From Sediminicoccus rosea (GTDB taxonomy: Bacteria; Pseudomonadota; Alphaproteobacteria; Acetobacterales; Acetobacteraceae): 64,000 nt of DNA. This document shows positions 3,841 to 45,345 of this stretch, one piece after another. Every line of letters starts with the position of its first letter. Position 1 is the stretch's first letter. The notes beneath the pieces were generated by a model. The model saw nothing but the letters and a program-made list of their open reading frames with translations. It did no database searches and was not told where the DNA came from. The stretch lies in the NCBI RefSeq assembly GCF_033547095.1, contig NZ_CP137852.1, positions 4,861,001 to 4,925,000 of the forward strand, read 5' to 3'. Made by a program: the position numbers and the translations under genes.

Positions 3841-3848
3841 ACCGCCAT

Positions 3849-4739
3849 ATGGCGGTCATGGACACGCCCGACCTCCAGGTCCGCCCGGACCCCGCCGACC
3901 CCCGACTGACCCGCCGCGTCACCGGCCTCGACCATACCGGCGCCGAGGTGGAGACCAGCGTCACCATGGAACGCCCCCTCACGCTCTATCTGAACGGGCA
4001 GGAGATCGTGACCATGATGACGATCCTCGACCGCCCGGAGGACCTGGCCGTGGGCTACCTGCTCAACCAGGGCATGCTGCGCGCGGAGGACCGGCTGACG
4101 GCGGTGGATTATGATGACGACCTCGGCGTCGTCGTCGTCCGCACCGAGGCGCGGACGGATTTCGAGGAAAAGCTGAAGAAGAAGACGCTCACCTCCGGCT
4201 GCGCCCAGGGCACCGCCTTCGGCGACCTCATGGAGGGCTTCGCGAGCGTGCGCCTCTCCACCGAGGTGAAGCTCCGCACCAGCGACCTCTACCGCCTGCT
4301 GCACCGGATCAACACGATCCCCTCGCTCTACCTGGAGGCCGGCGCCATCCATGGCTGCGCGCTGGCGGCGGCCGACCAGCCGCTCTGCTACATGGAGGAT
4401 GTCGGCCGCCACAACGCGGTGGACAAGATCGCCGGCTGGATGTTCCGCGCCGGCGTCTCCGGGGCGGACAAGATCTTCTACACGACCGGGCGCCTCACCT
4501 CGGAGATGGTGATCAAGACGGTGCGGATGGGCATTCCCATCCTGCTTTCGCGCTCGGGCTTCACCGCCTGGGGCGTGGAACTCGCGCGCGAGGCGAACCT
4601 GACGCTGATCGGCCGCTGCAAGGGCAAGCGCTTCACCGTGCTGGCGGGCGAGGGCCGCATGGTCTTCGACGCCGACCCCCGCTACGTCGAGGAGGAGAGC
4701 GCCAAGCACTGGCGCAAGAACTCGGCCGAGGCAGAGTAG
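3849..4739 (+). CDS. fdhD: Formate dehydrogenase accessory sulfurtransferase FdhD
   Basis: A 296-residue cytoplasmic protein that carries sulfur from a cysteine desulfurase to the molybdenum cofactor of formate dehydrogenase. Family landmarks are visible: ERPLTLYLNG, EDLAVGYLLNQG, the cysteine loop, and the strongly conserved YMEDVGRHNAVDK and TTGRLTSEM stretches. The loop reads TSGCAQGT, with one Cys (Cys118) where many homologues have two in CxxC. The start at 3849 is 8 bp after the preceding gene. No formate dehydrogenase subunits are in the window, but mobA at 7236 belongs to the same cofactor pathway. Confidence 0.92.
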   Translation: MAVMDTPDLQVRPDPADPRLTRRVTGLDHTGAEVETSVTMERPLTLYLNGQEIVTMMTILDRPEDLAVGYLLNQGMLRAEDRLTAVDYDDDLGVVVVRTEARTDFEEKLKKKTLTSGCAQGTAFGDLMEGFASVRLSTEVKLRTSDLYRLLHRINTIPSLYLEAGAIHGCALAAADQPLCYMEDVGRHNAVDKIAGWMFRAGVSGADKIFYTTGRLTSEMVIKTVRMGIPILLSRSGFTAWGVELAREANLTLIGRCKGKRFTVLAGEGRMVFDADPRYVEEESAKHWRKNSAEAE

Positions 4740-7235: not shown

Positions 7236-7841
7236 ATGCACGAGACCTATGGCGTCATCCTGGCAGGCGGACTCGCGCGGCGGATGGGCGGGGGGGACAA
7301 GCCCCTCCGCACCCTCGCCGGCAAGCCGATGCTCGACCACGTCATCGCCCGCATCGGGCCGCAATGTGCGACGCTGGCGCTCAACGCCAATGGCGACCCG
7401 GCCCGTTTCGCCGCCCATGGCCTGCCCGTCCTGCCCGACACCCTGCCCGACCACCCGGGCCCGCTCGCCGGCATCCTCGCCGCCATGGAGGCCTCGCCCT
7501 TGCCCTGGGTGGTGACGGTGCCCGGCGATTCCCCCTTCCTGCCGGAGGACCTGGTCGCGCGCCTGCACGCCGCGCGCGAGGCCGCCGGCACGCCCATGGC
7601 CTGCGCCGCCTCGGGCGGCTACGCCCACCCGCCCATCGCCCTCTGGCCGCGCGAACTGGCCGCGGCCCTGCGTCAGGCCGTCACCGAAGGCGAGCGGAAG
7701 ATCGACCGCTGGACCGCCCGCCATGGCGTCGCCCATGCCGAATGGCCCACCACCCCCTTCGACCCCTTCTTCAACGCCAATACCCCCGAGGAACTGGCGG
7801 AGGCAGAGAGGCTCTTGCTCAACCGGGGTGTTTCGCCGTAA
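7236..7841 (+). CDS. mobA: Molybdenum cofactor guanylyltransferase MobA
   Basis: A 201-residue cytoplasmic nucleotidyltransferase that joins GMP to molybdopterin to give the guanine dinucleotide cofactor used by formate dehydrogenase and DMSO-reductase family enzymes. The N-terminus has the nucleotide-binding signature ILAGGLARRMGGGDKPL (residues 8-24). Later come DHPGPLAGI, the metal-binding VPGDSPFLP and the C-terminal NANTPEEL. Length matches the family. It fits the nearby fdhD functionally, although monooxygenase and Bug genes lie between them. Confidence 0.93.
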   Translation: MHETYGVILAGGLARRMGGGDKPLRTLAGKPMLDHVIARIGPQCATLALNANGDPARFAAHGLPVLPDTLPDHPGPLAGILAAMEASPLPWVVTVPGDSPFLPEDLVARLHAAREAAGTPMACAASGGYAHPPIALWPRELAAALRQAVTEGERKIDRWTARHGVAHAEWPTTPFDPFFNANTPEELAEAERLLLNRGVSP

Positions 7842-7872
7842 CGCTCAGGGACGCTTTCCGGGAGACAAGAAC

Positions 7873-7998
7873 ATGAAGGCCGTCATCACCGGCATCCTCG
7901 CCGCCACCATCCTGTCCGTCGCCGCCGCCTTCGTGCTCGACACGCGCGTGCAGGAATCGGCCGAGCAGCGCTTCGCCACCTCGGGCGTCCGCCTCTAA
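7873..7998 (+). CDS. 41-residue single-helix membrane or exported small protein
   Basis: A short open frame with a GGGAGA ribosome site about 8 bp before its ATG. The product starts MKAVITGILAATILSVAAAFVL, one hydrophobic helix that is either a signal anchor or signal peptide, and then has a charged tail ending TSGVRL. The codon use is high-GC like its neighbours and it fills the gap after mobA, so I believe it is expressed. The function is unknown. Confidence 0.55.
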   Translation: MKAVITGILAATILSVAAAFVLDTRVQESAEQRFATSGVRL

Positions 7999-31185: not shown

Positions 31186-32351
31186 TGCGCTTCTCCCCCA
31201 CCATCATGGCGACGGCCGACCCCGCCATCCCCGCCGCCCGCGCCTGGGCGGCGCGCTACCAGGGCCAGCGCGGCCCGGCGCTGGACCTGACGCAGGCCGT
31301 GCCAGGCTATCCGCCGCATCCGGAACTGCTGGCACGCCTTGGCGAGGCGGCTGGGCAACGCGCAGCCGCGGGCTATGGCGCCATCGCGGGCGACGAGGCG
31401 CTGCGCGCGGCCCTGGCCGAGGATGCGAGCGGCTTCTACGGCGCGGCCATCGGGCCCGGGCAGGTGGCGATCACCGCCGGCTGCAACCTCGCCTTCGCCA
31501 TGGCGATGAAGGTGCTGGCCGCCCCTGGCGACAATGTGCTGGTCCCCACACCCTGGTACTTCAACCATGAGATGGCGCTGACCATGGCCGGCGTGGAGGC
31601 ACGGCCCCTGCCCTGCTCCGCCGCGCAGGGCTTCGTGCCCGATGTGGCGCTGGCCGCGACGCTGCTGGATCAGCGCACGCGCGCCATCCTTCTCGTCACG
31701 CCCAACAACCCGACCGGCGCCGTCTATCCGCCCGAGGTCATCGCGGGCTTCGCCGAGCTCGCGCGCCGGCGCGGCATCGCGCTGGTGCTGGACGAGACCT
31801 ATCGCGACTTCCTGCCCAACACCGTGCCGCACCGCCTCTTCAGCGATCCCGACTGGGGCGAGGTGCTGGTGCATCTCTACAGCTTCTCCAAGGCCTATTG
31901 CATTCCGGGCCACAGGCTCGGCGCCGTCATCGCCGGCGAGGGTTTCCAGCACCAATTGGCCAAGGCGCTCGACACCCTCCAGATCTGCCCCGCCCGTCCG
32001 GCGCAGCAGGTGCTGGCCTGGGCGATCCCGGCGCTGCGCGACTGGCGCTCGGACAACCGCAAAATCATGCTGGCGCGCGCGGCCGCCTGCCGCGCCGCGC
32101 TGAACAGCGACTGGATCGACGCGATGGGCAGCTACTTCGCCTATCTGCGCCTGCCCGAGGGGGCGCCCGATGCGATGGCGGCGGCCGAACACCTCGCCGC
32201 CGAACAGGGGCTGATGACGCTGCCCGGCCCCTTCTTCGGCCCGGGGCAGGAGCGGCACCTGCGCCTCGCCTTCGCCAATGCGGAGGCCGAACGGCTGGCG
32301 GAACTGCCGGCACGGCTGGCGGGACTGGGGGCTGGCCACGCCACGGGTTGA
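31185..32351 (+). CDS. Class I/II pyridoxal phosphate aminotransferase
   Basis: A 388-residue fold-type I aminotransferase. Key residues are visible: TPNNPTGAVYPP (172-183), DETYRDF with PLP-binding Asp203 and Tyr206, and Schiff-base Lys236 in SFSKAYCIPGHRLGA. LDLTQAVPGYPP at the N-terminus is typical of aspartate/aromatic-type enzymes. The start codon overlaps the stop of the glycosylase gene. The amino-donor specificity cannot be predicted. The first 32-bp operator-like site lies about at its 3' end (32350-32381). Confidence 0.86.
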   Translation: MRFSPTIMATADPAIPAARAWAARYQGQRGPALDLTQAVPGYPPHPELLARLGEAAGQRAAAGYGAIAGDEALRAALAEDASGFYGAAIGPGQVAITAGCNLAFAMAMKVLAAPGDNVLVPTPWYFNHEMALTMAGVEARPLPCSAAQGFVPDVALAATLLDQRTRAILLVTPNNPTGAVYPPEVIAGFAELARRRGIALVLDETYRDFLPNTVPHRLFSDPDWGEVLVHLYSFSKAYCIPGHRLGAVIAGEGFQHQLAKALDTLQICPARPAQQVLAWAIPALRDWRSDNRKIMLARAAACRAALNSDWIDAMGSYFAYLRLPEGAPDAMAAAEHLAAEQGLMTLPGPFFGPGQERHLRLAFANAEAERLAELPARLAGLGAGHATG

Positions 32352-32381
32352 TTTTCGAAAATCTTGACGGTTTCGACAATC
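32350..32381. promoter_or_regulatory. 32-bp operator-like element, site 1 (ahead of the dioxygenase gene)
   Basis: It contains the perfect palindrome GATTTTCGAAAATC (32350-32363), then TTGACG and GTTTCGACAATC. Two TCGA cores lie 18 bp apart. The same arrangement is found at 34518-34549 and, in opposite orientation, at 37609-37640. The central TTGACG (32364-32369) could be a -35 hexamer, so a bound protein would block the promoter. Confidence 0.7.
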
Positions 32382-32423
32382 CGCGCGAGGCTCCCCGGCC
32401 AGATCCGCTCGAGGGGGGGAAAG

Positions 32424-32459
32424 ATGACACGCCAGCAGCACCAGGCCGCGCCCGCATGA
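32424..32459 (+). CDS. Candidate 11-residue leader peptide coupled to the dioxygenase gene
   Basis: ATG at 32424 follows a strong purine-rich ribosome site (GAGGGGGGGAAAG) and encodes MTRQQHQAAPA. It stops at a TGA that overlaps the ATG of the dioxygenase gene (ATGA, 32456-32459). The dioxygenase ATG itself has no comparable ribosome site, which suggests translation is handed over from this minicistron. No homology can be claimed for such a short peptide. Confidence 0.35.
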   Translation: MTRQQHQAAPA

Positions 32460-33370
32460 TCCAGGTCAAGCGCCTCCGGCACCTCGCCCTCACCGTGACC
32501 GACATGGAGCGGCAGCTCGCCTATTACCGCGACATCATCGGCCTGGCCGAGATCGGCCGCGAGGCGGGGCGCGCCTTCCTGGCGAGCGAGGCGGGCCAGC
32601 TTTCCATCGTGCTGGAGCAGGGCGGCGTGGCCGGCCTCGCGCGGCTCGGCTTCGACCTGCCGGCCGATGGGGATATCGCCGCCGCCGAGCGCGCGCTGGT
32701 CGCCGCCGGAATGCCGGCCGAGCGCTGCACCGATGTGGCGCCGGGCTGCCCCGTGGCGCTGCGCTCGCGCGATGCGGATGGCCGCGCGATCGAGCTGCAT
32801 GTCGCCTTCCACGGCTATGAGAACCGCCTGCCCCTGCCCGGCATCGCGCCCCTGAAGCTCGGCCATGTCGCCTGCTTCTCGCCCGATCCGGCGGCGACGG
32901 CGGATTTCTTCACCGGGCAGCTGGGCTTCCGCGTCTCCGACTGGATCGAGGACCGCTTCGTCTTCCTGCGCTGCAACCACGAGCACCACACGGTGAACTT
33001 CACCCGCGGCCCCGATGCGCGCATGCACCACATGGCCTTCGAACTGCGCGACGCCGGCCACATGCACCGCGCGGCCGATATCCTGGGCGGGCAGAAGGTG
33101 CCCATCCTCTGGGGCCCGGTGCGTCATGGCCCCGGCCACAATGTCGCGATGTATCACCGCGACCCCGAGGGCAATGCGATCGAGCTGTTCCACGGCCTCG
33201 ACTGCATGACGGACGAGGCGCTGGGCTTCTGGGACCCCCGCCCCTGGCACCGCGACCGGCCGCAGCGCCCCAAGACCTGGGTCGGCCTGCCGCGCGATGT
33301 CTGGGGCCTGCCACCCTCCCAGGCCTTCCTCGAGATGCACCGGCTGCAACTGCCCGAGGAAAAGGGCTGA
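32456..33370 (+). CDS. VOC-family extradiol-type ring-cleavage dioxygenase
   Basis: A 304-residue protein with two vicinal-oxygen-chelate modules, like catechol 2,3-dioxygenases. The C-terminal module keeps the full metal triad: His137 (KLGHVACFSP), His192 (MHHMAFEL) and Glu243 (GNAIELFHG). HGPGHNVAMYHRDPEGN supplies the usual second-shell residues. It probably cleaves a catechol-like ring, or a related diketone, with Fe(II) and O2. It is followed 1 bp later by an NTF2-like gene and preceded by operator site 1. The ATG at 32456 is the start that matches the first VOC strand. Confidence 0.84.
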   Translation: MIQVKRLRHLALTVTDMERQLAYYRDIIGLAEIGREAGRAFLASEAGQLSIVLEQGGVAGLARLGFDLPADGDIAAAERALVAAGMPAERCTDVAPGCPVALRSRDADGRAIELHVAFHGYENRLPLPGIAPLKLGHVACFSPDPAATADFFTGQLGFRVSDWIEDRFVFLRCNHEHHTVNFTRGPDARMHHMAFELRDAGHMHRAADILGGQKVPILWGPVRHGPGHNVAMYHRDPEGNAIELFHGLDCMTDEALGFWDPRPWHRDRPQRPKTWVGLPRDVWGLPPSQAFLEMHRLQLPEEKG

Positions 33371-33371
33371 G

Positions 33372-33749
33372 ATGGCGCCCGACGCCGCCGCCATCCTGGC
33401 GCTGGAGGACCGGCGCTTCCAGGCGATGGTCGCGCAGGATTTCGCGGCACTCGATGCCCTGATCGCCGAGGATCTTCGCTTCGTCCATTCGAACGGCGCG
33501 GTGGAGGACAAGGCGGAATTCCTCCGCAAGCTGCGCGATGGCGAGCGGCGCTACCTGCGCTACGCGGCGCTCACGCGCGAGGTGCGGCAGGAGGGCGGCT
33601 TCAGCTTCGTCTTTGGCGAAGCGGATGCCGAGATCGCGCGCGCGGGTGGTGGAATCCGCACGCGGATGACCTATACCGCCATCTACCGCGACGCGCCCGC
33701 GCCGCGCCTCTTCGCCTGGCATTCGGTGAAGTCCCCCGCCGCCCCTTGA
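33372..33749 (+). CDS. NTF2-like (SnoaL/DUF4440-type) small protein
   Basis: A 125-residue cone-fold protein. The N-terminal helices (ILALEDRRFQAMVAQDFAALDALIAEDLRFVHSNG, residues 8-42) and the strand near RMTYTAIYRD are typical of nuclear transport factor 2-like proteins of the DUF4440 group. Members act as small isomerases, dehydratases or binding proteins; the His in FVHSNG and the one near the C-terminus could be active. Its position between the dioxygenase and the GntR regulator suggests a part in the same pathway. Confidence 0.75.
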   Translation: MAPDAAAILALEDRRFQAMVAQDFAALDALIAEDLRFVHSNGAVEDKAEFLRKLRDGERRYLRYAALTREVRQEGGFSFVFGEADAEIARAGGGIRTRMTYTAIYRDAPAPRLFAWHSVKSPAAP

Positions 33750-33800
33750 AGCCCGGGTGGGGACGGCCTCACTCTCACGGTCTCCAAGGAGTGCCCCACG

Positions 33801-34514
33801 ATGTCCGCCACGGCCGCCACGAAGCGCGCCGCCCCCGCGGCGGTGCTGATCAGCCAGACGGTGCTGAACCGCCTGCTGGCCGACATCCTGGATGGGCGCT
33901 ACGCGCCCGGCGCCCGGCTGCGCTTCGCCGAGTTGCAGGCGGCCTATGAGGTCGGCATCGGCACGCTGCGCGAGGCGCTGTCGCACCTCGCCTCGGTCGG
34001 CATGGTGGAGGTGGACGCCAATCGCGGCTACCGCGTGGCCCCGGTCTCCGAGGCGGATCTGCTGGATGTCTCCAGCCTGCTGATCGAGTTCGAGCAGCGC
34101 GCGATCCTCTCCTCCATCGAGAATGGCGACAAGGCGTGGGAGGAGGCGGTGGTGGTGACCTTCCACCGCCTCTCCGCCATCGAATCCCGCCCGCGCGCGG
34201 AACGCGCGGCGCGCTTCAAGGAATGGGTGGCGCTGCACCGGGATTTCCACCACGCGCTCGTCTCGGCCTGCGGCTCGCGCTGGCTGCTGCACATGCGCGG
34301 GCTGCTCTATGACCATATGGAGCGCTACCGCCTGCTCTCGCAGCGCCACCGCCCGCAGGGGCCGGGGCGCCTCGCCGAGCATGAGGCGATCAAGCAGGCG
34401 GCCCTCGAACGCCGCGGGCCGGAGGCGGCGGAGCTGCTGCGGAAGCAGCTGCAATGGACGGTGGACAACGTCAGGCTCTACGCGCCGCAATTCATCCAGC
34501 CACCCAGCGCCTGA
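33801..34514 (+). CDS. GntR-family transcriptional regulator with FCD ligand domain
   Basis: A 237-residue DNA-binding protein. The winged helix (residues about 17-75) contains LADILDGRYAPGARL and VGIGTLREALSHLASVGMVEVDANRGYRVAPVS. The C-terminal FCD helical domain has RFKEWVALHRDFHHALVSACGSRWL, with the Asp/His residues that usually bind a metal and a carboxylate ligand. It most likely controls the surrounding catabolic genes; 32-bp sites lie immediately 3' of it and at both ends of the cluster. A good AAGGAG ribosome site precedes the ATG. Confidence 0.9.
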   Translation: MSATAATKRAAPAAVLISQTVLNRLLADILDGRYAPGARLRFAELQAAYEVGIGTLREALSHLASVGMVEVDANRGYRVAPVSEADLLDVSSLLIEFEQRAILSSIENGDKAWEEAVVVTFHRLSAIESRPRAERAARFKEWVALHRDFHHALVSACGSRWLLHMRGLLYDHMERYRLLSQRHRPQGPGRLAEHEAIKQAALERRGPEAAELLRKQLQWTVDNVRLYAPQFIQPPSA

Positions 34515-34517
34515 CCA

Positions 34518-34549
34518 GAAAATCGAACATCTTGAAAGTTTCGAAAATC
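34518..34549. promoter_or_regulatory. 32-bp operator-like element, site 2 (ahead of the hydrolase gene)
   Basis: It starts 3 bp after the GntR gene stop and ends 51 bp before the hydrolase ATG. It reads GAAAATCGAACATC, then TTGAAAGTTTCGAAAATC, aligning base for base with site 1 (GTTTCGA-AATC right half identical except one base). TTGAAA at 34532-34537 may be the -35 of the hydrolase promoter. Confidence 0.7.
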
Positions 34550-34600
34550 GGGGCATGATGCCGCACGAGCCCGGTTCAACGGGCAAAGGAACGGCATCCC

Positions 34601-35476
34601 ATGGACAGCGAGATCACCTTCACCTCGGACGGGCTCACCCTCGCCGGCAGCCTGCATGTGCCGGAAGGCCGCGCGCCGGAGCAGCGGCTGCCCGCCGTCA
34701 TCGTCCTGCACGGCTTCATCGGCGCCAAGGACAATTCCTATTCCGAGGTGGTCAGTCGGCTGATGGAAAGCTGGGGCTATGTCGTGCTCCGCATCGACTT
34801 CCGCGGCTGCGGCAAGAGCGAGGGCAAGCGCGGCTACGTGCTCTGCCATGACCAGGTGGCCGATACGCGCAACGCCATGACCTGGCTCGCGCAGCGCCCC
34901 GAGGTGGACCCCACGCGCATCGCGGTCCTCGGCCACTCCTTCGGCGCCGCCATCGCCGCCTATACCGCCAGCACCGACACGCGCTTCGCGGCGGCCATCA
35001 TCTCCTGCGGCTGGGGCCATGGCGAGCGCAAGTTCCGCGGCCAGCACGCGACACCCGAGGCCTGGGAGAAGTTCACCAACCTCCTCGCCGAGGGCCGTGC
35101 CCACAAGGCCCGCACGGGCGAGACGATGATGGTCAGCCGCTGGGATGTGGTGCCGATGGCCGAGCATCTGCGGAAGAACCTCTCCCACCTCGCGCAGACG
35201 GTGGTGGCCGCCGACACCGCGCAGAGCATGTTCGACTTCAAGGCCGAGGAGGTGATCCACCAGCTCGCCCCCCGCCCCGTGCTCTTCATGCATGGCGCGG
35301 ACGACACGGTGACGCCGGTCGAGCAATCCATCCGCATGTGGGAGCTGGCGGGCCAGCCCAAGGACCTCGTGCTGATCACCGGCACCGACCATTTCCCGAT
35401 CTTCGGCAAGGACAATCGCGGCCGCGACATCCTGAAGGGCTGGATGGAGCGCTACTTCCCCGCCACGCCGGCATGA
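34601..35476 (+). CDS. Alpha/beta hydrolase
   Basis: A 291-residue serine hydrolase without signal peptide. The nucleophile Ser113 is in GHSFGAAIAAY; the acid is probably the Asp in LFMHGADDTVTP; the base is the His in GTDHFP. The oxyanion-hole strand is IVLHGFIGAKDN. It resembles the dienelactone hydrolase/acyl-peptidase-like group. In a cluster with an extradiol dioxygenase it could hydrolyse a ring-cleavage product, but the fold alone does not prove it. It is coupled to the next gene by ATGA (35473-35476). Confidence 0.83.
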   Translation: MDSEITFTSDGLTLAGSLHVPEGRAPEQRLPAVIVLHGFIGAKDNSYSEVVSRLMESWGYVVLRIDFRGCGKSEGKRGYVLCHDQVADTRNAMTWLAQRPEVDPTRIAVLGHSFGAAIAAYTASTDTRFAAAIISCGWGHGERKFRGQHATPEAWEKFTNLLAEGRAHKARTGETMMVSRWDVVPMAEHLRKNLSHLAQTVVAADTAQSMFDFKAEEVIHQLAPRPVLFMHGADDTVTPVEQSIRMWELAGQPKDLVLITGTDHFPIFGKDNRGRDILKGWMERYFPATPA

Positions 35477-36519
35477 GCGCCCGCATCGAGGCCGGCGCCC
35501 TGCGCGACTTCGCCGCCGCCATCCTGCAGGCGGCCGGCACCGGCGAGGCCGATGCGCGCGCCTGGGCCGAGACGCTGGTCTGGGCCAATCTGCGCGGCGT
35601 GGACAGCCACGGCGTGCTGCGCATCCCGCGCTATCTCGAACTCATCGGCACCGGCGCCATCAACCCCAAGCCCCGCATGGCGATGCGCATGCAGGCCGGC
35701 GCCATCGGCCTGCTCGACGCCGACCAGGCGCCCGGCCCCGTCGCCATGAACCGCGCGATGGATGAGGCCATCGCCATCGCGCGGCGGCTGCATCTGGGCT
35801 GGGTGGTGGCGCGGGACATCACCCATGCGGGCGCCGTCGGGCATTTCGCGCTGCGCGCAGCCGAGCAGGGGATGGCGGGGCTGGTGATGACCGCCTCCGG
35901 CCCGCTCATGGCCTGGCCGGGCAGCGCGGGGGCGGTGGTCTCCACCAACCCACTCGCCATCGCCATCCCGGCCGGCACGCGCCCGCCCTTGCTGCTGGAC
36001 ATGTCCACGGCGGCCGTCGCACTCGGCAAGATCATGGCGGCGAAGGATGCCGGCACGCCCATCCCCGAGGGCTGGGGCGTGGATGCGGCCGGCCAGCCGA
36101 CGCAGGATCCCGCGAAGGTCGCGACGCTGCTGCCCATGGCCGGGCCGAAAGGGGCGGGCCTCTCGCTGATGATCGAGTGCCTGGCCAGCCTCGCCGCCGG
36201 CAATCCGCTGATCAGCCTGGCGCTGCGCGGCGCGGGGGCGAAGGAAGGGCCGCGCATGAACGGCCTCGCCATCGCGCTCGATATCGCGGCCTTTGGCGAG
36301 CCGGGCGCCTTCACCGCCGAGGTGGATGCGCTCGCCTCCGCCGTGGCCGCCGTGCCGGCGAGCGGCGCCACGCCCGTGCTGCTGCCGGGGGATCGCGGCG
36401 GCGCCGTGATGGCGCGCCGCCTGCGCGAGGGGATCACCCTGCCGGATGGCACCTGGAAGCGCCTCTCGGCCTCGGCCGCCGGGCTTGGCGTGGCCCTGCC
36501 CGGCCTGCTGAGCAGCTAA
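35473..36519 (+). CDS. Ldh/MDH-2 family NAD(P)-dependent oxidoreductase
   Basis: A 348-residue enzyme of the malate/L-lactate/ureidoglycolate dehydrogenase family, a fold distinct from classic lactate dehydrogenases. Signature segments are WANLRGVDSHGVLRIPRYL (38-56), ARDITHAGAVGHFALRAAEQGMAGLVMTAS (118-148), VVSTNPLAIAIPAG and GPKGAGLSLMIECL (about 220). Enzymes of this family oxidise 2-hydroxy acids or reduce cyclic imines. Overlaps the hydrolase by ATGA and shares CTAA at its end with the stop of the convergent Bug gene. Its likely job is a 2-hydroxy/oxo-acid step in the regulon. Confidence 0.86.
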   Translation: MSARIEAGALRDFAAAILQAAGTGEADARAWAETLVWANLRGVDSHGVLRIPRYLELIGTGAINPKPRMAMRMQAGAIGLLDADQAPGPVAMNRAMDEAIAIARRLHLGWVVARDITHAGAVGHFALRAAEQGMAGLVMTASGPLMAWPGSAGAVVSTNPLAIAIPAGTRPPLLLDMSTAAVALGKIMAAKDAGTPIPEGWGVDAAGQPTQDPAKVATLLPMAGPKGAGLSLMIECLASLAAGNPLISLALRGAGAKEGPRMNGLAIALDIAAFGEPGAFTAEVDALASAVAAVPASGATPVLLPGDRGGAVMARRLREGITLPDGTWKRLSASAAGLGVALPGLLSS

Positions 36520-37508
36520 CCTGCCTGCAGCTGCCGGCTGCCGATCAACTCGCGCCAGCGGGAGATCTCGGTGGCGACGAGGCTGCGCAGCTCCTCGGGC
36601 GTGCTGGTGCGCACGCGCCCATCCACCAGCGCGGCGAGGCGGCTGCGATGCTCCGGCTGCTCGGCCAGGGTCATCACCGCCTGATGGAGCCGCGCCTGCA
36701 CGGGGCCGGGCAGGTTGGCTGGCCCCGCCAGCCCGGCCCAGGTGGTCACGACGTAGTTCGGCACCGTCTCCGCCGCGGGCGGCACGTTCGGGAAGGCCGC
36801 GACCGGCTCGGCCGCCGTCACCGCCAGCGCACGCAGCCGGCCGGATTGCAGCTGCGGCCCGGCCGTCACCGTCGTGATGATGGCGCAGGCGAGGTCGCCG
36901 CTCATCAGGCCGGTGATGGCATCGGATTCGCCGCGATAGGGCACATGCACCAGCTGCGCGCCGGACATGGCGCCCAGCAGCTCGCCCGCCAGGTGATGCG
37001 TGGACCCCACCCCGGCCGAGCCGAAGGTGATCCCGCCGGGCCGGTTGGCCATTTGCAGCAGCGAGCGGAGATCCCGCGCCGGATGATCCGCCCGCACCGC
37101 GATGACGAAGCCGAACTCCACGACGCGGGAGATCCAGGTGAAGCCGTCCACCGGATCGAAGGTGAGGTTGCGGCCGAAGGCGGCGGCCACCGCATGGCCC
37201 CCGGTGATGAGGCCGAGCGTATAGCCGTCGGGCGCCGCACGGCTCAGCGCGGCGGAGGCCACCATGCCGCCCGCGCCCGGGCGCGGCTCCACGATGACGG
37301 ATTGCCCGAGCAGGCTGCCGAGCGAGACCGCCAGCACGCGCGCCAGCGCATCGGCCGAGCCTCCCGGCGCGAAGCCATGCAGCAGCGTGATGGGGCGCTC
37401 CGGCCAGGCGGCAAGGGCGGGCGCGGCGGCCAGCGCGCCCACGCCGCCCAGAAGGAGGCGACGCGCGATGCGCGGCGCAGGCGGGCCGGCCGTGAAGCGG
37501 CGTGTCAT
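36516..37508 (-). CDS. Tripartite tricarboxylate transporter substrate-binding protein (Bug family)
   Basis: A 330-residue periplasmic protein. The signal sequence has a twin-arginine-like start (RIARRLLLGGVGALAAAPALA). Fold landmarks are WPERPITLLHGFAPGGSADALAR, VEPRPGAGGMVASAALSRAAPDGYTLG, FGSAGVGSTHHLAGELLG, and VHVPYRGESDAITGLMSGD. Its own upstream region carries operator site 3, in the orientation matching its transcription, so it likely captures the substrate of the regulon between 32456 and 36519. No TctAB permease is adjacent. Confidence 0.87.
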   Translation of the reverse strand: MTRRFTAGPPAPRIARRLLLGGVGALAAAPALAAWPERPITLLHGFAPGGSADALARVLAVSLGSLLGQSVIVEPRPGAGGMVASAALSRAAPDGYTLGLITGGHAVAAAFGRNLTFDPVDGFTWISRVVEFGFVIAVRADHPARDLRSLLQMANRPGGITFGSAGVGSTHHLAGELLGAMSGAQLVHVPYRGESDAITGLMSGDLACAIITTVTAGPQLQSGRLRALAVTAAEPVAAFPNVPPAAETVPNYVVTTWAGLAGPANLPGPVQARLHQAVMTLAEQPEHRSRLAALVDGRVRTSTPEELRSLVATEISRWRELIGSRQLQAG

Positions 37509-37608
37509 TCCTGTTCGTCCTCCCTGAGCCAAGGCCGGACCACGGGCCCGGCACGCCGCCGCCGCCCTGGCTGGGGGCGACGATCAACGCCAGGACACAC
37601 TCTCACAG

Positions 37609-37640
37609 GATTTTCGAAACTTCAACTCTCTTCGAATATC
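37609..37640. promoter_or_regulatory. 32-bp operator-like element, site 3 (ahead of the Bug gene)
   Basis: On the minus strand it reads GATATTCGAAGAGA, then GTTGAAGTTTCGAAAATC, 100 bp upstream of the Bug gene ATG at 37508. The 32-bp length, the 18-bp TCGA-to-TCGA spacing and the right half GTTTCGAAAATC are the same as in site 2. TTGAAG in the middle may be a -35. The element's right end overlaps the stop codon of the giant gene by two bases (37639-37640). Confidence 0.68.
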
Positions 37641-40600
37641 AGACAAAGCTCCAGTCCGAGCTGTGCAGGCTGGCGGCATTGGCGAGGGTGATGAACTCCA
37701 CCGTCAGGCCATCCGCCGAGCTGATCCGCCAGATCGTGGCGTCGGTCTGCGTGAAGCTCGCGCCCTGCGCCACCGTGCCGTAGCCGCTGAACTCCAGCCG
37801 ATCCCCCGCCGCGGGCCCCTGGCCGGCGAAATCCAGCACCACATCCCCATCGGCCTGCCCACGGACGAAGCGGAACACGTCATGGCCCGCGCCACCGGTC
37901 AGGGTATCGCTGCCTTCGCCGCCATCCAGGATGTTCGCGCCGGCATTGCCGTCCAAGCGGTTGTCCAGCGCATTGCCCGTGCCGCTCAGCCCGGCCGAGC
38001 CCGAGAGGCTGAGGCGCTCCACCTCGGCACCCAGCGTCAGGCTGACCGAGGTGAGGACGCGGTCATAGCCGCCGCCCACCTGCTCCACCACCTGATCGAG
38101 CGCGTGGTTCACGACATAGGTGTCGTTGCCCGCACCACCCTCCATGCGGTCCGCGCCCCAGCCGCCATCCAGCCAGTCATTGCCCAGGCCGCCGACCAGG
38201 GTATCGGCGCCGCCATCGCCCCGCAGCGTATCGTCGCCCTCGCCGCCATCCAGGATGTTCGCGCCGGCATTGCCATCCAAGCGGTTGTCCAGCGCATTGC
38301 CCGTGCCGCTCAGCCCCGCCGGGCCCGAGAGGCTGAGATGCTCAAGCTCCGCCCCCAGCGTCAGGCTCACCCGGGAGACCACGCGATCATAGCCGCCGCC
38401 CGCCTGCTCCACGACCTGATCGAGCGCGTGGTCCACGACATAGGTGTCGCTGCCCGCGCCGCCTTCCATCCGGTCCGCGCCGGAGCCGCCATCCAGCCAA
38501 TCAAGGCCCAGGCCGCCGATCAGCGTATCGGCGCCGGCCTCTCCCATCAGGGTGTCGTCGCCCTCGCCGCCATCCAGCAGGTTCGCCCCCGCATTGCCGT
38601 CCATGCGGTTGCCCAGCGCATTGCCCGTGCCGCTCAGCGCAGCCGTGCCCGAGAGGCTGAGGCGCTCCAGCTCCGCGCCCAGCGTCAGGCTGACCGAGCT
38701 GATCACGCGGTCATAGCCACCGCCCGCCTGCTCCATCACCTGGTCGCGCACATGGTCCACGACATAGGTGTCGCTGCCCGCGCCGCCCTCCATCCGGTCC
38801 GCGCCCGAGCCGCCATCCAGCCAGTCAACGCCCATGCCGCCAATCAGGGTATCGGCGCCGCCGCTCCCCCTCAGACTGTCATCCCCTTCGCCGCCCTCCA
38901 GGCGGTTCGCCCCGGCATTGCCGTCGATCCGGTTGTTCAGCGCATTGCCCGTGCCGGAGAGGCCGCGGGTGCCGAGCAGGGTGAGGTTCTCGACATGGGC
39001 GCCCAGCGTCCAGCTCACCGTGGCGAGCACGAGGTCCCGGCCCTCATCCGCTGCCTCGAAGACGCGGTCCGCGGCATGGTCGGCGCTGTAGGTGTCGGCA
39101 CCGGCACCGCCGGCCATGCCATTGGCGCCCGCCCCGCCGAGGCTGTCATCGCCGCCCAGCCCGAACAGGATGAGTCCCGCGGCCGTGGCGTCCAGCACCT
39201 CGCCCGCTTCGGTGCCGACCTGCGCGGCGGCGGGCGACGCCACCTGCTCGGCCGTGCCGCCGGCATCGGTGTAGCTGGCAACGGCACGCAGCAACTGCCC
39301 GGCCTGCCCCGTGGCCGGTGCGAAGCTCGCGGCATCGGCGCCCGGAATCTCGGCCCAGATGTCGCCCGCCAGCGCCTGCCAGCGAAAGCCGATCGTCCCC
39401 ATCCCGTCCGGGTCCGTGAGGGCGGGCGTCGCCGTCAGCAGCCCGTCCTCCAGGCTGAACCGGATCGTGCCCTGCGGCGCGTCATTCTGCGGCGAGATCC
39501 GCACCGTGATGGTGGTTGATTTCTCCAGCACGAAGCTGCCCAGCGTCGAGCCCGTCTGGCGGATGATGTCGACCGCGCCATCGCCGTCATAGTCGCCGAT
39601 GGCGGGCGCCGCGCTGAGGAGATAGGGGTCAACCAGCCGCAGCGGATTGGCCGCGCCGGTCAGCTCGACGAAGGTGCCGCCGTCGTTGCGGAAGCTGCGG
39701 AGGGTGCCGGCCGCGCTCGCCAGCACGAGGTCCATGTCGCCATCGCCATCGAGGTCGCCGACGGCCGGCGCGGCGCGGTCCACGGTGATGCCGGCGAAGG
39801 GCGTGGCCGCGATGTCCACCGCGACGAAGCCGTCCTCCGTCTGGCGCCAGGCCTGCAGGCCACTGAAGGCCAGCGAACCCGCCAGCAGATCCAGATCGCC
39901 ATCATCATCGAAGTCGATGAACACCGGGGTGGAGAGGCGCTGGGCGGCGAGTGTCGTGAAGCTGCCCCCGGACGGCCCGCCGGCCACGAAGCCATCGGTC
40001 GTGCCACGCCAGAAATCCAGCCCTTCCTGCGCGCTGCCAAGGACGAGATCGACGAAGCCATCGCCGTCAACATCGCCGAAGGCCGGCGCCGTATACGCGC
40101 CACCGACGACATCCCTGAACGGGTTCGAGCCGCCCGCCAGGAACTGGAAGCCGGCCTCCGTGTTCAGATACGTATCGAGCGTGCCGTAGGCGTTCCCCAT
40201 GACGAGGTCGAGGTCGCCATCGCCGTCGAAATCCACCAGCACCGGCCGCGGATCCATTTCCGTGTAGAGGTGCCCGACGGGGTCCAGCAGCATGGGCAGC
40301 GGCACGAAGGCCCCTCCCTGATCCGCCATGTTGAGCCGGCCGCCCACCGCATCGACGAGGCCATAGGTCAGGTTGCGCGTCGCGGTCGGCGCGTCGCTCG
40401 TATTGGCGTAGGTCAGCGCGCCGATCATCGCCTGGACCGCCGCGCCATAGGCCGCCGCCGTGAAGGCGACGCTGAAGGTGCCGCCGACGCCACCCGAGGC
40501 GGTGCCGATCACCTCGCCCTCGTAGCGCACATTCGTGCCGTCGAAGCTGATCTGGCGGAAGCCGTTGCCCGTGCTGCGGAGCGAGACGACATCCTCGGCC

Positions 40601-43600
40601 AGCAGGCCCGAGACGGTGAAGACCCCGCCCGCGAACCGGTCGCCCTGGATCAGCGCCACCGAGGCATCGATCAGCAGCGGTCCGGCCTTCGCCGCGTCTT
40701 CCGTGAAGGTCACCTGCGGGGCGAGGCCGCCGAGCCAGGTGATCTCGCGCGTGTCGGTGACCGTGACGACCAGGGTCGTGGAGCTGAAGCTGCCGGTCGC
40801 ATCGGTCGCCCGAACCTCCAGCTCGTAGACATTGTCGCGGTTCGCATCGCGCGGCGCCTCGAAGTCGAGACCGTAGGAGCCGAGCCTGCCGCGCTGCCCT
40901 GGCTCGTTGAACATGTAGAAGGCGCCGCTGTCCGGCCCCACCGGCCGGAAGGTCACCTGACCGCCCTCGGGATCGAAGGCGCTGAAGATGACATCCGTCC
41001 AGAGGGCGCCCTCGCGGACGGTCAGGTGGGTGACGGTCTGGCTGATGACCGGCGGGTCGTCCTGCGGCGTGACGTTGACCGTGATGCTGTTGCCCGGCGC
41101 GGTCTGCACGAGGGAGCGGAAGCTGCCGGTGCCATTGCCCGTCACCACATCCACGAGACCGTCGCGGTTGATGTCAGCGGCCGCGAGGGCCCAGGCGGCA
41201 TTCCCGCTGAAGGCAGCCAGCGGATTGGCCGTGCCGGTCAGCTGCACATAGCCTTCGCCCGTGTTGCGCCACACCTGGGGCGGCCCGCTCACCATGCCGA
41301 TCGCGAGGTCGAGGCGGCCATCCTGGTCGAAATCGACGAAGACCGGCGCCCCGATGCCGCCCACCTGGCCCGCGGCGAAAAGCGGGTTGAGCCCATCGGC
41401 CAGCCGGACGAGGCCCTCGGGCTTGTTGAGCCAGACCCTCAGATCCGGCGACAGGACCAGGTCCTTGCGCCCATCACCGTCGATATCCACGAAGGCAGGG
41501 GCACCCTGCGCGTTGCCCCCCACGGTGATGCCGGCCACCGGGCTCTCGGCAAAGGGGACGAAGCCGTCGGCGGTGTTGCGCCAGGCCAGCAGCGGCTGGT
41601 CCGACGAGCCATAGGCGAGGACCAGATCTTCCCGCCCATCGCCGTCGAGGTCGCCGAAAGCGGGCCGGGTGTAGATCCCGGGCGCCGAGATGTGGGCGAA
41701 GGGATTTTGCGCGGTGGTCGCGGGGGTGAAGCCGGTCTCGGTGGCGAGGAACACCCGGAGGCCGTTGTTGGAGCCGCCGCTGACCAGGTCGAGCCGGCCA
41801 TCGCCGTTCACGTCGAAGAATGCCGGCGCGGAGAGGCCCGCGCCGACCGAGAGCCCCGCCACGGGATCGGCCGATGGCGTCGCGAAGACCCGCGCCTCAC
41901 CCGGCTCGACCAGGTCGAGGCGAAGCTGGCGCGTGGCCGTCGGCGTATCATCCGTCGTCGCGTAGGTGAGCGAGCGCAGCACCGCCTGCGCGGCCGCCTC
42001 GGTGACGCCGGTGGTGAACAGCACGGTGAACCGGCCGCCGCCATTCTCGGTGACGATGCCGACCTGCGTGCCGCCGAAGCGGATCGTGGTGCCGTCGAAG
42101 CCCAGCTGCCCGGGGCCGTCGCCGGTGTGGAGGATGCCGATCCGGTCTTCCGCCAGCAGGCCCGAGAGCTCGAGCCGCGCGCCGCGCAGGTCGTCGCCCG
42201 CCGCCAGCGTCGCGCTGCCGAACAGCACGGCCGGCGCCGCATTCACGGCGTTCTCCGCGAGCGTCACCTGTGCCGGCAGGGCACCGAGCTGCGCCTGCTC
42301 GACCGCGTTCTGCACCGTGACGGCGATGCTGGTGCGCGAGCCGCCGGAGACGGCCGTCACCTCGTGGATGTTGTCGCCATCCGCGTCGCGCGGGCGCTCG
42401 AAATCGGGCGCGGCGCGGAACCGCAGCGCACCGGTCGCCGGGTTGATCTCGAACAGTGCGGCGTCGGCCCCCTCCAGGGACCAGCCGCCGGCGTTCGGCA
42501 GGCCGGGCTGCCAGAGGGTGGTGCCGGTGTTCTCGACCGTCGCGAGCGTCACATCGGCAAGGGGCGGTGCCGGCGGCAGGCTGGCCACCACCGCCACCTC
42601 GATGATCCGCGACGTGACACTGCCATCGCGGTCCAGCAGGCTGACCTGGAGATCGCGCGATCGGGGGGGCACTTGCGCCGTGCTGTCAAAGGCGAGGCTC
42701 TCGATGAGCGCCTCGATCGCCGCATCGGTGACGCTGGGCAGCAGCGTCACCGTCAGCCATGCGCCGGCACCGCCCGACCAGGTGCCGATCGCCGTCCCGG
42801 CGAAGCTGACCTGCGCGCCATCCAGCGTGATGCCGCCCGGCGTCGGCGCGATCATCACCCGGTCGCCCGCCAGCTGCCCGGTGACCACCAGCTGCCGCGG
42901 CGCATCGTCCCCCCGCTGAAAGCTGACATCGGCGTCCAGCCGCTGCGGCCCGCCCCGGACGGCGCTCTCGAGGAAGTTGACCCGGCTCTCCACGCCGTCC
43001 AGCCGCGCATAGTCCCGGTTGTCGGTGACGGTGATGGTGACGGCCTGGGTGGTGGTCACGCCATTGGCGGTGGCGAGGATCTGCAGGTCATGGACATTGT
43101 TGCCGCCGGCATCCCCCGGGACCTCGAAATCCGGCGGGGCGCGGAACCGCACCGCGCCCGTCGCGTCGATCGTGAACAGGTCGCGGTCGGCCCCGGCGAG
43201 CGAATAGGTCACGGCCTCGCCCTCCGGGTCCACCGCCTGCGCCTGCAGGACGATGCCGGTGGCGTTCTCCACGAAGCTGACCGCATTGGGGGAGAGGAAG
43301 CGCGGCGCGTCATCCTCGGCCGTCACCGTCAGCGTGACGCGCGCGGCACCCGGCGGCCCGTCATTCCGCAGCACGGTGAAGCCGCCGGCGGCGGAGCCCA
43401 CCACCAGATCGGCATAGCCGTCGCGGTTCAGGTCGACCCCTGCCGGCGTGCTGGATGCGCCCACATCGACGCCGGCGAAGGGATTGGCCGCGCCGGCCCA
43501 TTCGACGAAGCCGGTGGAGGTGTTGCGCCAGGCGCGCAGCGTGCCCTCCAGGTTGCCGACGACCAGGTCCATCCGCCCGTCGCCATCGACGTCGAGCAGG

Positions 43601-45210
43601 GCGGGGGCGGCATGCGCGCCGACATCGATGCCGGCGAAGGGATTGGCGCTCCCGGTCAGCGGCACCCAGCCCTCGGCCGTGTTGCGCCAGGCGAGGAGCA
43701 GCCCCTCCTGGTTGCCGACCACGAGGTCCGGCCGGCCATCGCCGGTGACATCACCGAAGGCCGGCTTCGCGTAATCGCCGACATCCACGCCGCGGAGGTT
43801 CCACAGCCCGGTCGCGTCGCTGCCGACCAGGAAGAAGCGATCGGGCGTGGCGCCCACGCCATTGCTGCCGGAGTGGTAGGTGACGAAGAGCGTTCCATCG
43901 AGCCAGCCGAACACCATGTCGGGCAGGCCATCGGCGTTGAGGTCGGTGAAGGCCGGCGCGGCATTGGCGCGCGTGAAGGAGAAGTCGAAGACCTCGAACG
44001 GATTGCGGCCCGACCAGGGCTGGAACGCGCCGTCATTGTTCTGGCGGCTCTGGATCCGCCCGGCGCCCTGGCCCCAGATCAGGTCGGCATCTCCATCGCC
44101 GTCGAGATCGGCGAAGGTCGGTGCGCTGTCACTTCCGGGGACGAGGGCGGCCAGCGGTTCGTCGGCGAGGGTGGTGAAGCCCGGCGTCCAAGGGCTGCCC
44201 AGGCTGCGGCCTGCGGTGTCCACCAGATCGATCGTCAGCACCCGCGTCGCTGCCGGCGTGTCGCTGGCGGTGCGATAGCCGAGGCGGTTGACCAGCGCCT
44301 CCACCGCCGTGCCGGTGGCGGCGCCGTTGAAGGTGACGACCAGCGGCGCACCCACGCCGCCGCTGATGGTGCCGAACGGCACGCCGCCGAAGCGCACCTC
44401 GCCATTGCCGCCCAGGCTGATCTGCCCCGGCCCGCTCCCCTGCCCGACCACGCCCAGCACATCCCCCGCCACCAGGCCGGAGACGACGAGGCGTGCGGGG
44501 ATGGCGCCGTTCCCCAGGTTCAATTGCGAGTCGAGAGACAGCAGAACCAAGGCGTCATCCGCCGCGTTCTCGGCCAGGGTCAGGCGCGGGATGAACCCAC
44601 TCAGGCTCGACGCGTCGTTCACATCCGTCACCGTGATCGCCACCGCGCGGCTGCTGGACAGCGCCCCGTCGGAGGCGGTGACGATCAGGTCATAGACGTT
44701 GTTGCCCCCGGCATCGCGCGGGCTTTCGGCATCCGGCGGCTCGACGAAGAACACCGCGCCGGTGGAACTGACCTTGAAGCGCGACGCGTCGGTGCCGCTG
44801 AGCGTCCAGCGCAGCGAATCCCCCTCCGGGTCGGTCGCCCGCGCCTGATAGGCGACGACGGTGCGGCCCTCGGCGAAGCTCGCGGTGGCGCCCGAGGTGA
44901 AGACCGGGGCCTCGTTCACGTCGAGGACGGTGATGGTGATGTCCCGGCTGTCCTCGCCGAAGGCGTTCTTGGCGGTGACCGTCAGCTGATAGACGTTGTT
45001 CCGGCCCTCATCGCGCGGCGCCTCGAAATCCGGTGCATCCCGGAAGCGGATCGCCCCGGTGGCATCAATGACGAAATCACCGCTGTCCGGCCCGAACAGC
45101 GCCCAGGACTGGACATTGATCCCAGCGGCTCCCTGATAGGCGATCCCGTTGCCCTCCTCGTCGAATTTGACGGCGCTGGGCGAGGTGAAGACAGGGCGGG
45201 AACCGGACAT
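37639..45210 (-). CDS. Giant secreted cadherin-like/FG-GAP/RTX calcium-binding protein
   Basis: A 2523-residue protein. Residues 1-200 are two cadherin-like domains (ending TVLDVNEAP and TVTDVNDAS). Three blocks of five FG-GAP/VCBS repeats follow at about 360-620, 1130-1370 and 1650-1900, each repeat with a DxDGDGxxDLV calcium site. Cadherin-like and recurrent AENA-type modules separate the blocks. Residues about 2010-2450 are RTX nonapeptides (GGxGxDxL) in tandem 108-residue units. The end (hydrophobic, acidic, no signal peptide at the N-terminus) suits type I secretion. I chose ATG 45210 with GAAGG upstream; a TTG at 45252 is less likely. Probably a surface or biofilm adhesin; no type I secretion genes are nearby. 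Confidence 0.88.
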   Translation of the reverse strand: MSGSRPVFTSPSAVKFDEEGNGIAYQGAAGINVQSWALFGPDSGDFVIDATGAIRFRDAPDFEAPRDEGRNNVYQLTVTAKNAFGEDSRDITITVLDVNEAPVFTSGATASFAEGRTVVAYQARATDPEGDSLRWTLSGTDASRFKVSSTGAVFFVEPPDAESPRDAGGNNVYDLIVTASDGALSSSRAVAITVTDVNDASSLSGFIPRLTLAENAADDALVLLSLDSQLNLGNGAIPARLVVSGLVAGDVLGVVGQGSGPGQISLGGNGEVRFGGVPFGTISGGVGAPLVVTFNGAATGTAVEALVNRLGYRTASDTPAATRVLTIDLVDTAGRSLGSPWTPGFTTLADEPLAALVPGSDSAPTFADLDGDGDADLIWGQGAGRIQSRQNNDGAFQPWSGRNPFEVFDFSFTRANAAPAFTDLNADGLPDMVFGWLDGTLFVTYHSGSNGVGATPDRFFLVGSDATGLWNLRGVDVGDYAKPAFGDVTGDGRPDLVVGNQEGLLLAWRNTAEGWVPLTGSANPFAGIDVGAHAAPALLDVDGDGRMDLVVGNLEGTLRAWRNTSTGFVEWAGAANPFAGVDVGASSTPAGVDLNRDGYADLVVGSAAGGFTVLRNDGPPGAARVTLTVTAEDDAPRFLSPNAVSFVENATGIVLQAQAVDPEGEAVTYSLAGADRDLFTIDATGAVRFRAPPDFEVPGDAGGNNVHDLQILATANGVTTTQAVTITVTDNRDYARLDGVESRVNFLESAVRGGPQRLDADVSFQRGDDAPRQLVVTGQLAGDRVMIAPTPGGITLDGAQVSFAGTAIGTWSGGAGAWLTVTLLPSVTDAAIEALIESLAFDSTAQVPPRSRDLQVSLLDRDGSVTSRIIEVAVVASLPPAPPLADVTLATVENTGTTLWQPGLPNAGGWSLEGADAALFEINPATGALRFRAAPDFERPRDADGDNIHEVTAVSGGSRTSIAVTVQNAVEQAQLGALPAQVTLAENAVNAAPAVLFGSATLAAGDDLRGARLELSGLLAEDRIGILHTGDGPGQLGFDGTTIRFGGTQVGIVTENGGGRFTVLFTTGVTEAAAQAVLRSLTYATTDDTPTATRQLRLDLVEPGEARVFATPSADPVAGLSVGAGLSAPAFFDVNGDGRLDLVSGGSNNGLRVFLATETGFTPATTAQNPFAHISAPGIYTRPAFGDLDGDGREDLVLAYGSSDQPLLAWRNTADGFVPFAESPVAGITVGGNAQGAPAFVDIDGDGRKDLVLSPDLRVWLNKPEGLVRLADGLNPLFAAGQVGGIGAPVFVDFDQDGRLDLAIGMVSGPPQVWRNTGEGYVQLTGTANPLAAFSGNAAWALAAADINRDGLVDVVTGNGTGSFRSLVQTAPGNSITVNVTPQDDPPVISQTVTHLTVREGALWTDVIFSAFDPEGGQVTFRPVGPDSGAFYMFNEPGQRGRLGSYGLDFEAPRDANRDNVYELEVRATDATGSFSSTTLVVTVTDTREITWLGGLAPQVTFTEDAAKAGPLLIDASVALIQGDRFAGGVFTVSGLLAEDVVSLRSTGNGFRQISFDGTNVRYEGEVIGTASGGVGGTFSVAFTAAAYGAAVQAMIGALTYANTSDAPTATRNLTYGLVDAVGGRLNMADQGGAFVPLPMLLDPVGHLYTEMDPRPVLVDFDGDGDLDLVMGNAYGTLDTYLNTEAGFQFLAGGSNPFRDVVGGAYTAPAFGDVDGDGFVDLVLGSAQEGLDFWRGTTDGFVAGGPSGGSFTTLAAQRLSTPVFIDFDDDGDLDLLAGSLAFSGLQAWRQTEDGFVAVDIAATPFAGITVDRAAPAVGDLDGDGDMDLVLASAAGTLRSFRNDGGTFVELTGAANPLRLVDPYLLSAAPAIGDYDGDGAVDIIRQTGSTLGSFVLEKSTTITVRISPQNDAPQGTIRFSLEDGLLTATPALTDPDGMGTIGFRWQALAGDIWAEIPGADAASFAPATGQAGQLLRAVASYTDAGGTAEQVASPAAAQVGTEAGEVLDATAAGLILFGLGGDDSLGGAGANGMAGGAGADTYSADHAADRVFEAADEGRDLVLATVSWTLGAHVENLTLLGTRGLSGTGNALNNRIDGNAGANRLEGGEGDDSLRGSGGADTLIGGMGVDWLDGGSGADRMEGGAGSDTYVVDHVRDQVMEQAGGGYDRVISSVSLTLGAELERLSLSGTAALSGTGNALGNRMDGNAGANLLDGGEGDDTLMGEAGADTLIGGLGLDWLDGGSGADRMEGGAGSDTYVVDHALDQVVEQAGGGYDRVVSRVSLTLGAELEHLSLSGPAGLSGTGNALDNRLDGNAGANILDGGEGDDTLRGDGGADTLVGGLGNDWLDGGWGADRMEGGAGNDTYVVNHALDQVVEQVGGGYDRVLTSVSLTLGAEVERLSLSGSAGLSGTGNALDNRLDGNAGANILDGGEGSDTLTGGAGHDVFRFVRGQADGDVVLDFAGQGPAAGDRLEFSGYGTVAQGASFTQTDATIWRISSADGLTVEFITLANAASLHSSDWSFV
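37900..38960 (-). repeat. 324-bp tandem coding repeats in the RTX region
   Basis: The C-terminal part of the giant gene contains at least three 324-bp (108-codon) tandem units, recognisable at 38120, 38444 and 38768 as the same reading in the same frame. Each encodes DGNAGAN, two or three GGxGxD clusters, DTYVVDH, GGGYDRV and SLTLGAE. A partial unit lies at each side. Such near-identical units can change number by recombination. Confidence 0.85.
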
Positions 45211-45345
45211 GGGGCGTGCCTTCGGCCTGGAGCAGGACGGATGACGCAACAAGCAGGACGGGCCGCCCCGGGCGCCGCGGGCGCGCCCAAGCGGCCCGTC
45301 CTGGCCGATGCTTAAAACTTCGATAAGCTAGCGTTCGCGCCAAAG

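Follow-up and report, generated by a model that had tools for sequence, protein, structure and literature searches.

In a 64,000-nucleotide stretch of the Sediminicoccus rosea genome (contig NZ_CP137852.1, positions 4,861,001 to 4,925,000; hereafter the window), a 32-bp element occurs three times around a gene for a GntR/FCD regulator, near genes for a VOC-type extradiol dioxygenase-like enzyme, a hydrolase with a dehydrogenase, and a Bug/TctC periplasmic receptor. Which protein reads this element, and what would its binding do to the genes that follow? Very probably the elements belong to a conserved four-site regulon of the GntR/FCD protein, which would act as a repressor: paired TTCGAA operators laid around a -35-like hexamer would allow two dimers to repress extradiol-dioxygenase and Bug catabolic units and to autoregulate the regulator gene. 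A catabolic gene set would thereby gain a testable four-unit regulon with exact operators, one unlinked transporter gene included.

The three copies reported in the initial annotation (operators 1 to 3 in Table 1, the third inverted) are exact in letters and coordinates. Pairwise they agree at 25, 22 and 24 of 32 positions, the spacing of 18 bp between TCGA cores that had been described as constant is seen in all three, and the right half said to be common to sites 2 and 3 is indeed the same (GTTTCGAAAATC). Each site carries one of the three occurrences of TTTCGAAA in the window. A central TTGA, claimed for every copy, is present in each; it spans positions 15-18 in the first two sites and is shifted by one base, to 16-19, in site 3. 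In leave-one-out tests the held-out sites scored 37.6, 43.6 and 36.7 bits, against best scores of 18.4, 18.1 and 18.9 bits in the matching resampled windows (40 first-order Markov resamples per test). Nor is the motif scattered at random in the genome: without mismatches, a pattern drawn from the sites matches these three places only in 5.14 Mb, where the reversed control pattern has no match.

That no further copy exists is true of the window; the genome has a fourth site (G000:C1:3158973-3159004), 1.7 Mb from the others and with three mismatches to the pattern, which ends 101 bp upstream of a second TctC/Bug gene (Bug2). It is kept near Bug2 orthologues in two close relatives, 111 bp (G250) and 153 bp (G249) ahead of the matched start. 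The Bug2 matches at E 1e-60 in G251, G252, G254 and G255 have no adjoining site at up to two mismatches, and G261 has no Bug2 match at E 1e-60. Another three-mismatch match, at C1:3377289, has no TCGA cores and no matrix score.

The element had been taken for one long operator, and is better read as two 14-bp palindromes of the GATTTTCGAAAATC type, centred on TTCGAA and with centres 18 bp apart; as a whole it is also an inverted repeat, GATTTTCGAA-N12-TTCGAAAATC. TCGA stands in both boxes at 18-bp spacing in all of 28 curated sites, a spacing that formed part of the site-finding criterion. This set leaves out L011/L028 (a single palindrome), L031/L032 (proteins identical to L014/L015), the weaker second upstream sites of L015 and L016, the Rhizobiales sites L018-L025, and the G261 and G195 sites, which came from the genome pattern search only. 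With target genes assigned by us from the neighbouring genes, TTG lies in the spacer on the transcribed strand at 27 of the 28 sites and on the other strand at one. In 24 of 27 sites a hexamer of the form NANNNT stands 16-17 bp beyond the -35-like one, compared with three of 324 control hexamers at 19-30 bp; this fixed-spacing test was chosen after inspection of the aligned sites and took the place of simple E. coli promoter scoring, which had returned mixed best promoters. The two counts favour the earlier suggestion that the central hexamer could be a -35 element, giving simple repression. Because the TTG position ranges from 15 to 17 between groups of sites while the core spacing is constant, operator and -35 seem to be two distinct features that are superimposed.

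The sites are kept ahead of orthologous genes. In five orthologous loci (L006-L010) they precede the VOC, hydrolase and Bug genes wherever the contig includes those genes (that of L008 stops inside the hydrolase gene). In more distant orthologues (L012-L017, L029 and L030) gntR itself has a site immediately ahead of it; in L014-L017 the regulator gene is followed by Bug, dehydrogenase, VOC and hydrolase genes in varying order. This distribution agrees with the original idea that each transcription unit has one operator of the local GntR protein. The window's aminotransferase, FG-GAP, outer-membrane-like and RraA-like neighbours have no match in the orthologous loci. Among 24 distant paralogues of the same family (L033-L056, loci of 2.4-3.7 kb), WTTCGAAW was found once, 501 bp upstream, and the FCD-domain motif DHMERYR, present both in proteins of the window type and in a Rhizobiales clade, is absent from all 24.

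In 249 genomes of the family, the strict pair pattern occurs in four of the six that hold an orthologue (best hit of at least 56% identity) and in 16 of the 243 that do not. Matches at up to two mismatches were present in 11 of 13 genomes searched for holding an orthologue, and the reversed control gave none. By our count 24 of the 32 distinct matched places in those 13 genomes are at regulon genes, two of them (G195:C57:56329 and G261:C206:13896) assigned by contig position or sequence, with the genes unread. An additional site-like sequence (G251:C26:76479-76508) lies away from the gntR contig in Falsiroseomonas stagni.

In the second clade, which is mostly Rhizobiales and 39-42% identical, ATTTTCGAAAAT is found in six of eight loci, with one base changed in L021 and L022. 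In the two loci tested for it, L018 and L019, this sequence lies between gntR and a divergent gene for a LigB-type extradiol dioxygenase. Here, at about 7810-7940, the central ATTTTCGAAAAT is flanked on both sides by outer boxes bearing TTGGA, candidates either for half-sites or for the -35 elements of the two divergent promoters. As to whether the operator arose once for Acetobacteraceae and Rhizobiales together, a tree splits the operator-bearing rows into two groups, and an approximately unbiased test did not reject a single clade (p 0.098); in both, the degenerate L011/L028 copy was labelled operator-bearing.

The regulator is a member of the GntR superfamily, FCD subfamily, with GntR and FCD Pfam scores (53.5 and 50.2 bits) above the cut-offs of 27 and 24.3. 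Its best NCBIfam model is CsiR (4.3e-39; 134.5 bits, below the cut-off of 218), its AlphaFold model has a predicted local distance difference test (pLDDT) score of 88.3, and VanR-group repressors are among the nearest solved folds. Each 32-bp element would be a double operator of the protein encoded at 33801-34514, on which two dimers, or one tetramer, would occupy the two TTCGAA-centred palindromes 18 bp apart. With the -35 in the spacer and the second palindrome between -35 and -10, bound protein would exclude RNA polymerase. An effector, probably an aromatic substrate or ring-cleavage product, would free the protein from DNA, and its release would switch on four units together, namely dioxygenase-DUF4440-gntR (hence autoregulation), hydrolase-dehydrogenase, the Bug receptor and the unlinked Bug2. 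Given a 51-bp gap and their common orientation, gntR is probably co-transcribed with the VOC gene, and so autoregulated.

Several observations weigh against this account. The -10-like hexamers of the window (GAGGCT, CATGAT and GAGTGT) are weak, NANNNT at 16-17 bp is absent from three of the 27 sites, site 4 included, and the VOC site of L010 lacks TTG. The L011/L028 copy has one palindrome only, beside a short VOC open reading frame (ORF); no hydrolase or dehydrogenase match was found in L011, and the copy is a remnant. The L021 core reads TCGG, and for eight of the 32 matched places no connection with the regulon is known. Sites in orthologous loci do not count as independent observations, and the loci were fetched through their GntR gene. 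Five sampled genus mates (G044, G124, G175, G216 and G248) have neither an orthologue at E 1e-30 nor the strict pair pattern, so that its presence within the genus is patchy. In the structural model, the FCD domain comes to six helices, the number that marks the VanR group, only if 132-137 and 139-154 are merged.

The constant spacing in the 28 curated sites, though part of the criterion by which they were found, and the inverted repeat formed by the arms would also suit a single operator, GATTTTCGAA-N12-TTCGAAAATC, read across both arms by one dimer or a rigid tetramer, and the VanR-group repressor Atu1419 is tetrameric (PMC7797058). Each dimer of Atu1419 binds one 10-bp palindrome, however, and in the window each arm by itself comes close to a palindrome of 12-14 bp, which is as long as known dimer sites; homologues, moreover, show lone palindromes or pairs at 7, 18-19 or 29 bp, which makes the single operator unlikely. 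A different doubt concerns the sign of control. The protein might bind these sites and activate, with a ring-cleavage intermediate as co-inducer, since close functional relatives act both ways: BphS of KKS102 represses when the ring-cleavage product is absent, relatives can activate, and BphR1 of P. furukawaii KF707, a GntR relative, does so, which counts with the points above (PMC10282184). At the activated KF707 genes, however, operator and promoter do not overlap (PMC10282184), whereas the window palindromes flank the -35-like hexamer and occupy the -35/-10 spacer, so that activation has only a slim chance of being right.

Were another regulator, encoded elsewhere in the genome, to bind the element, gntR would be a bystander among its targets, and the presence of GntR in every fetched locus, which is so by construction, could not tell the two apart. 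This is very improbable, given that the strict pair pattern tracks the presence of the orthologue in the family genomes, that a site precedes gntR itself in distant orthologues, and that a helix-alpha2 residue varies with the operator base. Three similar copies inside 5.3 kb might also be taken for a mobile or structural repeat. With four places in 5.14 Mb, beside one three-mismatch match devoid of TCGA cores, and with all four sites upstream of a start codon and kept across genomes, a repeat is hardly credible. The repressed four-site regulon remains the preferred explanation.

Does the same operator logic extend beyond these loci? Upstream of 79 more distant homologues, 16 perfect 12-bp palindromes with a TCGA core were found against 0.70 expected, and the base outside the core goes with residue 42 in helix alpha2. 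In a set of 104 rows, Phe42 occurs with TTCGAA in 21 cases, with ATCGAT in none and with neither in 20, Ile42 with ATCGAT in 10, TTCGAA in none and neither in 10; Leu42 (16) and Val42 (9) had neither core, Thr42 had TTCGAA in five of eight cases and Pro42 ATCGAT in one of three. After clustering at 60% identity, the Phe42 clusters number eight with TTCGAA, one with ATCGAT (this cluster is mixed, and Ile is the residue in its ATCGAT row, L115) and six with neither, and the Ile42 clusters six with ATCGAT and seven with neither. Residue 42 had been spotted by eye before the first test, and ties for separation with two other columns among 66 scanned.

The residue-core prediction was written down before fresh loci were fetched, and 98 of 99 were tested; one was dropped as at least 90% identical to a training row (L268 was left out, being equal to training row L017). 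Phe42 had TTCGAA in four and neither core in two, Thr42 TTCGAA in one, and Ile42 ATCGAT in 13 and neither in 18: for Phe and Ile no contradiction arose, with about half having neither core. The prediction that Leu42 and Val42 would go with neither core failed (five TTCGAA and six ATCGAT in all), Leu42 having TTCGAA in five, ATCGAT in five and neither in 29, and Val42 ATCGAT in one and neither in 10. Across the 99 fresh regions, ATCGAT (19) and TTCGAA (10) exceeded their shuffled values of 0.43 and 0.77 and were the top two of 64 palindromic cores by the same score. When the surroundings of 54 strong sites belonging to neither the window clade nor the Rhizobiales clade were examined, a second WTCGAW core was seen mostly at 18-19 bp (9 counts), 29 bp (8) and 7 bp (4), with 7 counts at other distances, with some pairs counted from both sides and some rows close relatives. 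Upstream of gntR in L037, L166, L210 and L211, overlapping cores (AAAATCGATTTTCGAT) have their TCGA at 7-bp spacing, and the BphS-like gene of pKF715A is preceded by the same compact layout.

On balance we lean towards the view that TCGA-core operators are used by a large class of CsiR/BphS-like FCD regulators, most of them uncharacterised and spread over the Proteobacteria. In this view residue 42 would help to determine which base flanks the core, Phe going with TTCGAA and Ile with ATCGAT, and paired cores would be spaced by 18-19 or 29 bp, distances that differ by one helical turn. If so, the regulons of many uncharacterised regulators could be predicted by sequence search, and operator-regulator pairs might serve as biosensor parts if the residue-base link holds. 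A simple tie between residue and base would then exist in a GntR group with operators unlike the textbook GT...AC motif.

Table 1. Features around the three elements of the window (positions in the 64,000-nucleotide stretch).
Feature	Position	Strand	Remarks
Operator 1	32350-32381	+	palindrome A 32350-32363, palindrome B 32368-32381; VOC-side copy kept in L006-L010
-35-like TTGACG	32364-32369	+	between palindromes of operator 1
-10-like GAGGCT (weak)	32387-32392	+	17 bp past -35; NANNNT at same spacing in L006-L009
Leader ORF, 11 codons	32424-32459	+	purine-rich ribosome-binding-like stretch; stop overlaps VOC start (ATGA)
VOC-type extradiol dioxygenase-like enzyme	32456-33370	+	Pfam Glyoxalase 1.1e-20; NCBIfam catechol_2_3 6.8e-40, below cut-off
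DUF4440/SnoaL-like protein	33372-33749	+	Pfam 4.9e-19
GntR/FCD regulator, CsiR-like	33801-34514	+	Pfam GntR 1.9e-14, FCD 4.3e-13
Operator 2	34518-34549	+	palindrome A 34518-34531, palindrome B 34536-34549; kept in L006-L010
-35-like TTGAAA	34532-34537	+	in operator 2
-10-like CATGAT	34554-34559	+	16 bp past -35; NANNNT at same spacing in L006-L010
Alpha/beta hydrolase	34601-35476	+	Pfam Hydrolase_4 1.1e-21
Ldh_2 oxidoreductase (malate/L-lactate dehydrogenase-like)	35473-36519	+	Pfam 8.3e-99
Bug/TctC periplasmic receptor	36516-37532	-	Pfam TctC 5.2e-58
-10-like GAGTGT (weak)	37597-37602	-	17 bp past -35
Operator 3	37609-37640	-	kept upstream of Bug in L006, L007, L009, L010
-35-like TTGAAG	37620-37625	-	in operator 3; one base further along than in sites 1 and 2

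The gene groups under the sites probably degrade a compound of aromatic type. The overlap of the leader ORF with the VOC gene suggests translational coupling; counted by eye, the leader is equally long (11 codons) in L006, L007 and L008 and has 17 codons in L009. The Bug/TctC protein, of a family that we take to be COG3181, more likely starts at the ATG at 37509. On the far side of operator 3, an ORF of 2537 amino acids (37639-45252, minus strand), whose repeats resemble those of FG-GAP/RTX proteins on visual inspection, has its end two bases within the operator; it has no match in the related loci.

Among known systems, the canonical operator of the FadR subfamily is a TKGT-N3-ACMA palindrome (PMC4494728), from which the window sites depart in having TCGA cores and no GT...AC boxes. 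GntR sites are often flanked by a weaker box, which lies 7-12 nt from the site centre and accompanies GT...AC motifs (PMC4494728); the window elements resemble these in having an adjoining extra element and differ in that it is a whole second palindrome, 18 bp off. The solved VanR-group FCD repressors Atu1419 and AlkR have other operators (ATGTATACAT and ATTGTCAGACAAT), and the Atu1419 residues Glu34 and Arg45 have Phe42 and Ile53 as their counterparts in the window protein, a match based on an alignment offset of 8 and on Glu and Arg facing these residues in two other structures. The AlkR, LhgR and DhdR operators, as given in the accessible text, have no TCGA core, and no GntR operator of the TTTTCGAAAA or TTCGAA type appeared among the matches listed in the open-licence literature (titles and abstract starts). 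CsiR of E. coli and P. putida, which acts in glutarate catabolism, is alike in supplying the best NCBIfam model, below its cut-off. The P. putida protein represses, and two regions are protected by it, one of them across -10/-35 (PMC6667623); its targets are others, and a TCGA palindrome is not named for it in the accessible part of that report.

The closest parallel is offered by AphS and BphS, proteins of the GntR family that repress the meta-cleavage genes for phenol and biphenyl. They bind several sites of the motif AAATmTCGAkATTT, taken to be cooperative, and are autoregulated; their targets include catechol 2,3-dioxygenase and hydrolase genes, and COG3181, an 'aromatic transporter family receptor', is among the genes regulated by AphS (PMC6449761). 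The likeness lies in the GntR family, in AT-flanked 14-nt palindromes with a TCGA core, several per promoter, in probable autoregulation, and in putative targets of the catechol-dioxygenase, hydrolase and Bug types. Around BphS-like genes the cores are 19 bp apart on pBN2 and 7 bp on pKF715A, and upstream of the gene in the BphS position of P. naphthalenivorans CJ2 two cores 19 bp apart form an inverted repeat. On pBN2 (L271), the divergent gap at 3765-3928 has three TCGA cores, two of them 19 bp apart, and the BphS-like gene adjoins hydrolase, ring-hydroxylating dioxygenase and catechol 2,3-dioxygenase genes. In contrast, no ring-hydroxylating oxygenase was seen adjoining the window regulator, and its sites form a strict 18-bp pair around a -35-like hexamer. 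The window protein has 36-38% aligned identity (40-43% in local matches) to three BphS-like plasmid proteins, whose residue 42 is Ile, Val and Val. The core of its sites is TTCGAA, whereas AphS and BphS have A or C before TCGA; exact AAATmTCGAkATTT does not occur, the base before TCGA being T in 22 of the 28 left boxes and in 24 of the 28 right ones, and A in the rest. Judged by these sequence features, the window system looks like a variant of the AphS/BphS kind that differs in its core sequence.

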